Shown: piece after piece, positions 17,574 to 21,085 of the stretch
How the letters are laid out: each line of letters begins with the position of its first letter
How positions within the stretch are numbered: position 1 is the stretch's first letter
Assembly: GCF_000786105.1 (NCBI RefSeq)
Contig: NZ_JTEV01000032.1
Span: forward strand, 1-43,130
DNA: 43,130 nt
Direction of reading: 5' to 3'
DNA from: Bdellovibrio sp. ArHS
GTDB taxonomy: Bacteria; Bdellovibrionota; Bdellovibrionia; Bdellovibrionales; Bdellovibrionaceae
Made by a program: the position numbers and the translations under genes
Notes under the pieces: model-generated
Told to the model about the DNA's origin: nothing
Databases searched by the model: none
Seen by the model: only the letters and a program-made list of their open reading frames with translations

Positions 17574-17602
17574 GCCATAAGATAATTTAATGGCTTTTTT
17601 TT
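17574..17602 (+). terminator. Weak-stem terminator after the LpoA-like gene
   Basis: GCCAT (17574-17578) pairs with ATGGC (17590-17594) and is followed by eight T (17595-17602). The stem is short, so termination may be partial, leaving some readthrough into the DksA-like gene downstream. Confidence 0.5.
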
Positions 17603-17675
17603 AACCCCCTTCTGCGGTGTGCCGGTCTTAGGTACACCAGCGACGACGCAGTCGCAGAATCTAAAGAAGGGGGTT
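17603..17675 (+). promoter_or_regulatory. Branched RNA leader sequestering the SD of the first DksA-like gene
   Basis: AACCCCCTTCT (17603-17613) is a perfect 11-base complement of AGAAGGGGGTT (17665-17675), which contains the Shine-Dalgarno of the gene starting at 17679. Inside this outer stem are two further hairpins: GGTGTGCC/GGTACACC (17616-17623 with 17631-17638, one G-T wobble, 7-base loop) and GCGAC/GTCGC (17640-17644 with 17651-17655). An alternative pairing, TCTGCG with CGCAGA (17611-17616 with 17653-17658), would compete with it. Folded as drawn, the ribosome site is closed, so translation should depend on opening the stem. The pairing is seen; regulation is inferred. No known riboswitch class is recognised. 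Confidence 0.6.
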
Positions 17676-17678
17676 GTT

Positions 17679-18050
17679 ATGACGGGTCGTATTTCTGAAA
17701 ACTTAGTGATGGAGTGTAGAAAAAAGCTTCTCATTGCCAAACAGGATGTCCTGAATAGATTCAGAACGGCCCAGCGCGAACTTGCCCACACAGAGCGCGG
17801 CGGCGATGAAGCCGACCAATCCGTTGCCCACATCGCGGAACATTCTTTTTTAGTAACTCAAGCACGCATGCGAAACCAACTGGTCGAAATCGAAATGGCT
17901 TTGGCGCGCATTGAACAGGGCACATTTGGTATCTGCGAAGAGACGGAAGAAATGATCGAGACAGAACGCTTGTTAGCTATCCCTTGGACACGCCTCAGTA
18001 TCGAAGGTGCTGAGATGCGAGAAGCAGTTGGTCGTAAATTTGCGCGATAG
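17679..18050 (+). CDS. DksA/TraR-family protein lacking the zinc site
   Basis: 123 aa from ATG 17679, with AAGGGGG 7 bases upstream. The helical hairpin of the DksA family is present, with acidic tip RGGDEADQSVA (Asp43, Asp46) as used by DksA to reach the RNA polymerase secondary channel. Only one of the four zinc cysteines remains: Cys86, with Thr89, Ser107 and Gly110 at the other positions, while the surrounding residues (FGICEETEE, then ERLLAIPWTRLSIEG) still align with the family. It is the same length as its tandem neighbour (18168-18539), so the two likely arose by duplication. It may be a metal-free transcription regulator or a partner of the second copy. Confidence 0.85.
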   Translation: MTGRISENLVMECRKKLLIAKQDVLNRFRTAQRELAHTERGGDEADQSVAHIAEHSFLVTQARMRNQLVEIEMALARIEQGTFGICEETEEMIETERLLAIPWTRLSIEGAEMREAVGRKFAR

Positions 18051-18115
18051 GCACTGCGCCAATGGCCTGCTTACTAAAACGTCACGCAGCGCTTTTTTGA
18101 TGACATGATCTCAAA

Positions 18116-18162
18116 CCCCCGTAATAAGGAAGCCACATTCGGCCAGATCATCATATCGGGGG
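18116..18162 (+). promoter_or_regulatory. C-run/G-run pairing over the SD of the second DksA-like gene
   Basis: CCCCCG (18116-18121) complements CGGGGG (18157-18162), which lies in the strong ribosome site GGGGGGTGAG just before ATG 18168. The intervening 35 bases have only a weak GCC/GGC hairpin. The arrangement repeats the C-run/G-run plan of the first DksA-like gene, although with a shorter stem. Confidence 0.45.
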
Positions 18163-18167
18163 GTGAG

Positions 18168-18539
18168 ATGAACGTAACCGAACTTACGGAACAAGAATTA
18201 CAAAATTTGCGTGAATCGTTGCTTTTCCAAAAAAGCTCGATCCTCAATAAGACGCACGAATTTAAAGCTGAACAATCCAGCATCGGCAACGTTGCGGACG
18301 AGGCTGAAGTGGCGTCACAAGATATCTCAAATAATATATCCATTCATCTTCATGAAAGAGATCGTACTGCTCTTTATGCCATTGAAAGAGCTCTGTCGAA
18401 AATTGCTGACGGGACCTATGGCCAGTGCGAATCCTGCGGTGAAATTATCGGCGCACGTCGACTTCAGGCCAGACCGTTCACCGCTCTTTGCATTGAATGT
18501 ATGGAAGAACAAGAAAGCCATTCGAATCTTTTTCAATAA
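18168..18539 (+). CDS. DksA/TraR-family zinc protein
   Basis: 123 aa from ATG 18168, chosen for the GGGGGGTGAG ribosome site ending 1 base before it; the longer frame from 18105 has no such site. The coiled-coil tip reads NVADEAEVAS (Asp44). The C4 zinc finger is complete: Cys87 and Cys90 in GQCESCGE, Cys108 and Cys111 in LCIECMEE. Such proteins bind the secondary channel of RNA polymerase and change promoter output, often with ppGpp. At 123 aa it is shorter than E. coli DksA (151), so it may be a general DksA of this lineage or a TraR/YocK-like variant. It is followed by a strong terminator. Confidence 0.9.
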   Translation: MNVTELTEQELQNLRESLLFQKSSILNKTHEFKAEQSSIGNVADEAEVASQDISNNISIHLHERDRTALYAIERALSKIADGTYGQCESCGEIIGARRLQARPFTALCIECMEEQESHSNLFQ

Positions 18540-18602: not shown

Positions 18603-18679
18603 GATTTAAGCTCCCTCTGTCTCATGCCGAGAAGTTTCATACTAGAAACATAAATTCCCGCATTACGCGGAGGAGCGGT

Positions 18680-21085
18680 ATGAGTTTTGACGATAAAGTC
18701 CTAGAAATCCCACAGACACTCCCCATGCTACCTGTGAGAGACATCGTTGTATTTCCTTATATGATTATTCCGTTGTTCGTTGGCCGCGATGCCTCGATCC
18801 GCTCAGTGGAAGAAGCTTTGGCGAAGAATCGTTTGATCTTTTTAGCTTCCCAAAAAGACATTTCCGAAGAGAATCCTTCTCCTGACAACATCTACACGGT
18901 AGGTACCGTGGCGATGATCATGAGAATGAGAAAACTTTCTGACGGTCGAGTGAAAATCTTGATCCAAGGCGTAGCAAAGGGTCGTGTTAAGAATTTCACG
19001 AAAACATCTCCTTCTTTCGAAGTGGCTGTAGAAAAAATCGAAGAAATCCCAACACAGAAAACTGTCGTTGAAAATGAAGCACTTATCAGAACGGCAAAAG
19101 AGCACATCGAGCGCATCATTGCTCTCGGTCGCCCTCTTTCTCCAGACATCTTGTTGGTGTTGGATGATGTTTCTGATCCAGGTCGTATCGCTGACCTTAT
19201 CGCTTCTAACCTGGGGATTAAAGTTCAAGACGCTCAAAAAGTTCTTGAAACTTCAGATGCGACAGAAAGACTTAAGCTTGTTAACGAAATCCTGGCTCAA
19301 GAACTTGAAATCATGCAGACCCAACAAAAAGGTCGCACTGGTGGCAAGGAGGACATGTCTAAATCTCAACGTGAGTACTTCTTGCGTGAGCAGATGAAGG
19401 CTATAAAGAATGAGTTGGGCGAAGGTGATTCTAAATCTGAAGAGATGGATGAACTTCGTGAAAAACTTGTGAACGCAGGAATGCCGCCACAAGTAGAGGC
19501 GGAAGCCTTGAAGCAGCTAGGACGTTTGGAGCGTATGCATCCCGATGCGTCTGAAGCAACAATGGTTCGCACATATCTAGACTGGATGGCGGATCTTCCT
19601 TGGAGCAAAAAATCCGACGACGTGATCGATCTTAAACGTGCCAAAGAAATTTTGGACGAAGATCATTACGAACTGGAAAAAGCCAAAGACCGTATTATGG
19701 AATTCTTGGCAGTCAGAAAATTGAAGCCGAATCTGAAAGGTCCAATCCTTTGCTTCGGTGGTCCTCCAGGAGTAGGTAAAACGTCTCTTGGCAAATCTAT
19801 TGCTCGCGCAATGGGCCGAGAATACTTCCGTATCGCACTTGGCGGCGTGAAGGATGAAGCTGAGATCCGCGGTCACAGAAGAACTTATGTTGGTGCAATG
19901 CCTGGTAAAATCATCCAAGCACTTCGTCAAGCTAAGACAAACAACCCCGTTATCGTTCTCGATGAAGTTGATAAATTAGGTTCGGACTTCCGTGGCGACC
20001 CGTCAGCAGCAATGCTTGAGGTCTTGGACCCAGAACAAAATGCAACTTTCCGTGACAACTATTTGAACGTCGACTTCGACCTTTCAAACGTGTTGTTCAT
20101 CGCAACGGCCAACGTGTTGGAGAATATCCCACCAGCTCTTCGCGATCGTATGGAAATTTTGAATATCCCTGGCTACACAGAGAACGACAAACTTTTGATC
20201 ACGAAGAAACATTTGATCAGAAGACAAATTGAAGCCAACGGTATCACTGACGAGAACATCAAGTTCACAGACGAAGGTATCAAATACTTGATCGCGGGTT
20301 ACACTCGTGAAGCAGGTCTTCGTAACCTAGAGCGCGAAGTCGGTTCTGTCTGCCGTAAAGTGGCAAAAATGGTTGTGATGGGTGAGGCTAATTTTGTAGA
20401 AATCACTCCAGCGACGGTTCCAGAGTTATTGGGACCTCCTCGCTTCCAACGTGACGACAAGTTTGCCGACTCTCAAGTGGGTGTTGTGCAAGGTCTTGCT
20501 TGGACACAAGCCGGTGGTGAAGTTCTTACTATCGAAGCCTTGAAAATGAAAGGTAAAGGACATCTTGCATTGACGGGCCAGCTTGGCGACGTGATGAAAG
20601 AGTCTGCTCACGCAGCAATGTCTTACGCTCGTGCTCACCAAGAAGAATTAGGTATTCCTGAAGACTTCTTTGAAAAGTATGACGTGCATGTTCACTTGCC
20701 AGCGGGTGCAATCCCTAAAGATGGCCCTTCTGCAGGTATCACTCTTACAACTGCCCTTGTAAGTTTGATGACAGGAACTCCCGTTCGTCACGATATCGCG
20801 ATGACTGGTGAGGTGACACTACAAGGTCGCGTGCTTCCGGTCGGTGGTATCCGTGAGAAATGTTTGGCTGCTTTGAACCTAGGTATTACAAACATCATTA
20901 TTCCGATGGCCTGTAAGAAAGATATCGCAGATATTCCCAAGGTCTTCAAAGACAAGATCAATTTCATCTTCGCTGAAAACTTAGATGAAGTGTTCGCGGT
21001 CGCCTTCGACAAAGAAGCGAAAAGCCAAGACAAAAAGGCTCCGACAAAAAAAGAACCAAAAAAATCGAAGAGCTTGGCTGCTTAA
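18680..21085 (+). CDS. lon: ATP-dependent protease Lon
   Basis: 801 aa (E. coli 784). It is a homohexameric cytoplasmic AAA+ protease that degrades damaged and regulatory proteins. An N-terminal substrate domain (1-~210) and a coiled-coil linker are followed by the AAA+ module, with Walker A GPPGVGKT (Gly361 to Lys367-Thr368) and Walker B VIVLDEVDKLG. The serine-lysine catalytic pair is Ser684 in PKDGPSAG and Lys727 in GGIREKCLA, with the same 43-residue spacing as E. coli Ser679/Lys722. The C-terminus is a lysine-rich tail (KKAPTKKEPKKSK). A GGAGGAG ribosome site precedes the ATG. It appears to be its own transcription unit between two terminators. Confidence 0.98.
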   Translation: MSFDDKVLEIPQTLPMLPVRDIVVFPYMIIPLFVGRDASIRSVEEALAKNRLIFLASQKDISEENPSPDNIYTVGTVAMIMRMRKLSDGRVKILIQGVAKGRVKNFTKTSPSFEVAVEKIEEIPTQKTVVENEALIRTAKEHIERIIALGRPLSPDILLVLDDVSDPGRIADLIASNLGIKVQDAQKVLETSDATERLKLVNEILAQELEIMQTQQKGRTGGKEDMSKSQREYFLREQMKAIKNELGEGDSKSEEMDELREKLVNAGMPPQVEAEALKQLGRLERMHPDASEATMVRTYLDWMADLPWSKKSDDVIDLKRAKEILDEDHYELEKAKDRIMEFLAVRKLKPNLKGPILCFGGPPGVGKTSLGKSIARAMGREYFRIALGGVKDEAEIRGHRRTYVGAMPGKIIQALRQAKTNNPVIVLDEVDKLGSDFRGDPSAAMLEVLDPEQNATFRDNYLNVDFDLSNVLFIATANVLENIPPALRDRMEILNIPGYTENDKLLITKKHLIRRQIEANGITDENIKFTDEGIKYLIAGYTREAGLRNLEREVGSVCRKVAKMVVMGEANFVEITPATVPELLGPPRFQRDDKFADSQVGVVQGLAWTQAGGEVLTIEALKMKGKGHLALTGQLGDVMKESAHAAMSYARAHQEELGIPEDFFEKYDVHVHLPAGAIPKDGPSAGITLTTALVSLMTGTPVRHDIAMTGEVTLQGRVLPVGGIREKCLAALNLGITNIIIPMACKKDIADIPKVFKDKINFIFAENLDEVFAVAFDKEAKSQDKKAPTKKEPKKSKSLAA

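Follow-up and report, generated by a model that had tools for sequence, protein, structure and literature searches.

The two tandem DksA-like genes of Bdellovibrio sp. ArHS are each preceded by a promoter-like element whose DNA is complementary to the ribosome site of the same gene and, judged by comparison with relatives, in which it is kept beyond chance, this complementarity is not accidental. The best account of it, which we hold with moderate confidence, is that transcripts reading through from upstream are silenced by folding back, while messengers started at the genes' own promoters stay open. According to this proposal, each gene would have its own promoter, the DNA of which would double as an arm directed against the ribosome site. 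An own-promoter messenger would begin downstream of this arm, leaving the ribosome site open, and for gene 1 it would bear a short protective hairpin at its 5' end. An incoming transcript, running from the upstream lipoprotein gene into gene 1 or from gene 1 into gene 2, would carry both arms, fold back and be poorly translated, and DksA-like protein would be made only when the own promoter fires. Computation supports the pairings and promoter-like elements, the complementarity specific to each species, and the predicted folds, open or closed; the transcription starts, the read-through and the block of translation in the cell we infer.

The window, i.e., the whole stretch of 43,130 nucleotides analyzed here, contains in this order genes encoding a HemN-like protein, GrpE and DnaJ (all three named from their translations), a LppC/periplasmic-binding-like lipoprotein, the two DksA-like proteins and Lon (18680):

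17679-18050, forward strand: DksA-like gene 1, 123 amino acids, Pfam PF01258, below the cut-off of the NCBIfam DksA model
18168-18539, forward strand: DksA-like gene 2, 123 amino acids, with a C4 zinc finger

Both proteins pass the Pfam model zf-dskA_traR (PF01258) and both stay below the curated cut-off of 115.5 bits of the DksA models TIGR02420/NF033459 (52.4 and 82.8 bits), and are therefore labeled DksA-like. The zinc finger of the gene 1 product is degenerate and retains a single cysteine. Most DksA zinc-finger cysteines are lost from it, while its C-terminal end RLSIEGAE varies at a single position among the family members sampled; from sequence, the conserved end suggests a different role for this part of the protein. 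A relative of gene 1 was found in all 61 family genomes searched, and genes 1 and 2 stand in tandem, mostly followed by lon, at 62 loci, from which the leaders were extracted together with the start codons. A third, non-tandem paralogue is encoded elsewhere (C13 in this genome; L002); in L002 a strong hairpin of terminator type precedes it by approximately 350 nt.

The leader of gene 1 contains the following features:

17601-17606, forward strand: -35-like box TTAACC, overlapping the 5' arm and conserved family-wide
17603-17613, forward strand: AACCCCCTTCT, the 5' arm that pairs with the ribosome-site region, within the -35/spacer DNA and covered by the swap test
17616-17638, forward strand: inner hairpin 1 (17616-17623 with 17631-17638), its loop formed by the -10 box
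17625-17630, forward strand: -10-like box GTCTTA, 18 nt after TTAACC
17636-17639, forward strand: predicted transcription start, placed 6-9 nt past the -10 box
17640-17655, forward strand: 5'-terminal hairpin GCGAC/GTCGC, the second inner hairpin (17640-17644 with 17651-17655)
17665-17675, forward strand: 3' arm AGAAGGGGGTT, including the ribosome site AAGGGGG of gene 1 (ATG at 17679)

The original prediction described a perfect 11-base pairing that buries the ribosome site of gene 1, and this was found to be correct: the 5' arm is the exact reverse complement of the 3' arm, and none of 200 dinucleotide shuffles folds as well as the native leader (z -5.34). The RNA fold of 17600-17690 consists of the 11-base stem and two inner hairpins (-42.1 kcal/mol; the range for the gene 1 11-base match is -42 to -48 kcal/mol). 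Both inner hairpins had likewise been described, as had an alternative pairing, which is contained in the match of TTCTGCG (17610-17616) with CGCAGAA (17653-17659). When 29 genes, roughly called across the window, were ranked by how well the upstream region complements the ribosome site, gene 1 came out as the extreme case (z -3.2, p 0.015); lon also stood out (p 0.03), and gene 2 did not (p 0.10). The lon leader (18610-18688) folds over its own ribosome site and start codon via CTCATGCCG/CGGTATGAG and GCTCC/GGAGC (z -3.7), a fold that is weak across the family (swap z -1.8). The T run at 17594-17602 was considered as terminator of the upstream gene and rejected, its hairpin being weak (z -1.1) with GC pairs missing in relatives, and no good terminator was found in the gap separating gene 1 from the lipoprotein gene. 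In L045, L051, L053, L055, and L078 a TTAAGAC (or AAGGAC) abutting the gene 1 ribosome site complements the -10 box GTCTTAA.

In front of gene 2, the corresponding features are:

18051-18096, forward strand: terminator-like hairpin and T run in the intergenic stretch after gene 1, more distinct in several relatives
18100-18105, forward strand: -35-like box ATGACA, belonging to a [AG]TGACA-N16-TAATAT-like pair found throughout the family
18116-18121, forward strand: 5' arm CCCCCG, the final six spacer bases, abutting the -10 box
18122-18127, forward strand: -10-like box TAATAA
18157-18163, forward strand: CGGGGGG, ribosome site and 3' arm of gene 2, before the ATG at 18168

The pairing of CCCCCG with CGGGGG is thus present as predicted and would bury the ribosome site, but its stability against shuffles is weak (z -1.6 to -2.0; 10-11 of 200 shuffles fold as well). 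In the genus member L031 the arm of gene 2 is lost and the ribosome site is kept; in some other genera the arm lies between -10 box and start, as in L051 (TAATAT CCCTAGA/TCTAGGG) and L052 (CCCCTCAGA/TCTGAGGGG). In the 5' region of the gene 2 leaders L004 to L038, TTTCGG and ATCATCATATCGGGGGGTGAG are nearly unchanged in the genus, though the folds predicted for the native messenger leave most of this region unpaired.

Across the family, [T/C]TAACC-N19-TCTTA/TCTAA precedes gene 1 with at least 9 of 11 matches in 60 of 61 leaders, a score that taken alone is biased as the scan takes the best site per leader; the box spacing is 19 in 55 of the 61, and the spacer sequence is free. Other genomic loci served as the independent test. 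A scan of 24 genomes of the genus for TTAACC-N15-23-GTCTTA, with the DksA locus removed and the hits clustered, gave spacing 18 in 22 of 53 clustered matches compared to an expectation of 1 in 9 (p 1.5e-8). At 11 of 25 loci examined, TTAACC-N18-GTCTTA is followed within 20-41 nt by a start codon that has a ribosome site, and the start codons at other genes of this class lie as near as 20-23 nt after the -10 box. Further occurrences are L086, L088, L090, L111, L113, L116, L118, L121, L122, L123, and L125. Besides DksA-like gene 1, the genes downstream include those for a PrkA-type kinase, for a second Lon and for small secreted proteins (a family of MRF... peptides), which looks like a stress set. 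The element constitutes a candidate promoter class whose sigma factor can be sought experimentally. Group IV (ECF) sigma promoters resemble the gene 1 element in having AAC as part of the -35 box and GTC as part of the -10 box. The distance from AAC to GTC is about two bases longer here than in E. coli RpoE promoters. For Bdellovibrio RpoE-like factors altered -35 contacts were reported and their consensus is not known (PMC3464611). The element does not fit the attack-phase FliA consensus TTAAG-N16-CCGATA (PMC3627812), and the Bdellovibrio papers examined here, these two among them, describe promoters and give no starts for these DksA-like genes. For gene 2, a T run, [AG]TGACA, N16 and TAATAT/TAATAA/TAAGAT/TAATTA occur in approximately 47 of 61 family leaders, a count somewhat biased by a scan that favors spacing 16.

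Given the position of the gene 1 promoter-like element, the predicted start falls past the 5' arm and past most of inner hairpin 1, which is probably absent from the native messenger. As CCCCCG is part of the promoter spacer, it would also fall outside the gene 2 messenger. The 5' arms of both genes are, as far as the sequences indicate, probably missing from the messengers of their own promoters.

Covariation at fixed register, which had been proposed as a check, was nearly negative: counted over all 11 pairs for 21 leaders of the genus, 77.8% of cells are paired compared to 76.4% in shuffled controls, a weak effect, with double changes at two pairs. Together with the lack of an Rfam family matching these leaders, this does not bear out the suggestion that the 11-base stem founds a new class of structured RNA. 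Because the arms shift and MAFFT aligns neither them nor the hairpin correctly, we turned to swap tests that need no common register, in which the duplex energy of each promoter segment with its own ribosome-site region is compared to that with swapped regions over clustered lineages, preserving base composition and conserved boxes. In these tests the complementarity was kept: own-species pairing is better for gene 1 (z -5.8, 45 lineages) and gene 2 (z -3.0, 36 lineages), also with stricter windows (z -5.6 and -2.5) and with the spacers alone (z -3.3 for each gene). The 45 nt preceding each promoter gave z -0.3 (gene 1) and +1.6 (gene 2), the first 26 nt of the coding sequences -2.6 and +0.9, lon -1.8 and the non-tandem paralogue +0.8; the values for lon and for the start of the gene 1 coding sequence suggest that general local folding may contribute part of the signal. 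For gene 1 the effect is seen inside (z -2.8) and outside the genus (z -3.8); for gene 2 the value inside the genus is z +0.5, both arms varying too little there for coevolution to show. In a shuffle-based duplex test 14 of 24 genus leaders of gene 1 reached p<0.01, and outside the genus 6 of 37 species reached p<0.05 for each gene, which is only a slight excess. In L013, L017, L018-L021, L022, L028, L066, and L084 the arms pair via very different sequences, such as CGACCTCCTTC/GAAGGGGGTCG (L017), CCCCTTTCCTGG/CCAGGAAAGGAG (L028), and GGGCGTCGTCTTATG/CATAAGGAGGCGCCC (L084). A role of the inverted arms as DNA-level operator or protein site was rejected, as the arms of different species keep their complementarity without any sequence in common.

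These data bear on the explanation that the elements are ordinary promoters only and that the complementarity to the G-rich sites is a functionless by-product of C-rich spacers. Any C run pairs with GGGGG sites, and the weak fixed-register covariation, the many species outside the genus without pairing and the mild effect at lon agree with it; we nevertheless regard it as unlikely, since the swap signals of both genes arise with composition and boxes kept and persist for the spacers alone, and since no such signal is seen in the upstream segments or at the non-tandem paralogue.

The fold-back proposal is further consistent with the predicted cost of opening the ribosome site, a value derived from the energy model. 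In the genus the median predicted cost for gene 1 is 3.5 kcal/mol from the predicted native start compared to 12.0 kcal/mol with the promoter segment included; for gene 2 the values are 4.7 and 10.0 kcal/mol. If the promoter segment alone is shuffled, the mean cost is 7.4 (gene 1) and 5.7 (gene 2) compared to 13.7 and 10.0 observed. The non-tandem paralogue shows no fold-back in duplex, opening-cost and swap tests, which, with the terminator-like hairpin in front of it in L002, fits the proposal. Read-through from gene 1 into gene 2, in turn, could be rare because of the terminator-like hairpins that separate them.

Judged by lineage comparison, the best-supported RNA element here is the hairpin at 17640-17655, which is kept by compensatory change. 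It lies 2-5 nt from the predicted 5' end of the gene 1 messenger in nearly all species, and in the swap test its pairing is kept while its sequence is free (z -10.3, p 0.0002, 34 lineages), with stems such as GCGAC/GTCGC, AGCAGC/GCTGCT, GACGAC/GTCGTC, and CAGTGTG/CACACTG. The E. coli ompA mRNA carries a stabilizing hairpin at its 5' terminus. The gene 1 hairpin resembles it in lying a few bases from the 5' end and in keeping structure while sequence varies, a likeness in position and conservation alone as compared to the stabilizing function of the ompA hairpin. On a plain reading the gene 1 hairpin would be a stabilizer of the 5' end; it may have another role. Most gene 2 leaders, including that of the window, show no obvious equivalent. 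The view that both genes repeat the same architecture is not supported: their promoter classes differ, the covarying 5' hairpin belongs to gene 1 only and the pairing of gene 2 is weak.

The original prediction inferred from the structures a shared switch, i.e., a leader RNA containing both arms that would control translation in response to a ligand, a protein, temperature or the ribosome. The stable fold of gene 1 (z -5.3) and its alternative pairing would suit such a switch, but it is very improbable, as both 5' arms lie within family-wide promoter-like elements and probably outside the normal messenger, the gene 1 class recurs at unrelated genes and the leaders match no Rfam family. Moreover, the -10 box is only 22 nt from the ATG in L052 and 18 nt in L075, which leaves no room for the 5' arm stem in the messengers of these relatives. 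A choice between start sites of the E. coli pyrC type, in which small shifts linked to nucleotide pools or DksA/ppGpp include or exclude the pairing bases, would suit the gene 2 arms of L051 and L052 and is just as remote for the window, whose arms lie upstream of the -10 boxes beyond a small start shift. We therefore consider the promoter-embedded arms, on balance, as an insulation trick and not as a new riboswitch.

Fold-back silencing of read-through transcripts is known for the IS10 (and IS50) transposase. As in IS10, the inverted arms flank the gene's own start, here a predicted one, and of the two arms the own-promoter RNA would contain just the 3' one, which bears the ribosome site, while the incoming RNA would contain both and stay untranslated. 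In contrast to IS10, the genes are chromosomal and encode DksA-like regulators instead of a transposase, two genes with different promoters are arranged in tandem, arm sequence and register vary among species, and the system is known from computation alone. For T4 gene e and other phage genes, ribosome sites are hidden in early, longer transcripts. Similarly, promoter identity is predicted here to set whether the ribosome site is folded away; in T4 this serves the timing of phage development, whereas here it would insulate from a neighboring bacterial gene. Fold-back before DksA-like genes that stand in tandem on a chromosome, using promoter-borne arms whose sequence turns over, would be new, if confirmed.

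Also for the interpretation of raw sequence a caution arises, as a stable leader fold can mislead if the arm is assumed to be transcribed. For the family we tentatively suggest, at somewhat less than even confidence, that the promoter cores of the tandem DksA-like genes stay complementary to their own ribosome sites through sequence turnover, that only own-promoter messengers are translated and that promoter identity is thereby read at translation for global transcription regulators. If this is true, two selective demands would act on the promoter core, transcription and the silencing of incoming transcripts, and the fold-back insulation against read-through used by transposons and phages would also guard chromosomal regulators of RNA polymerase.
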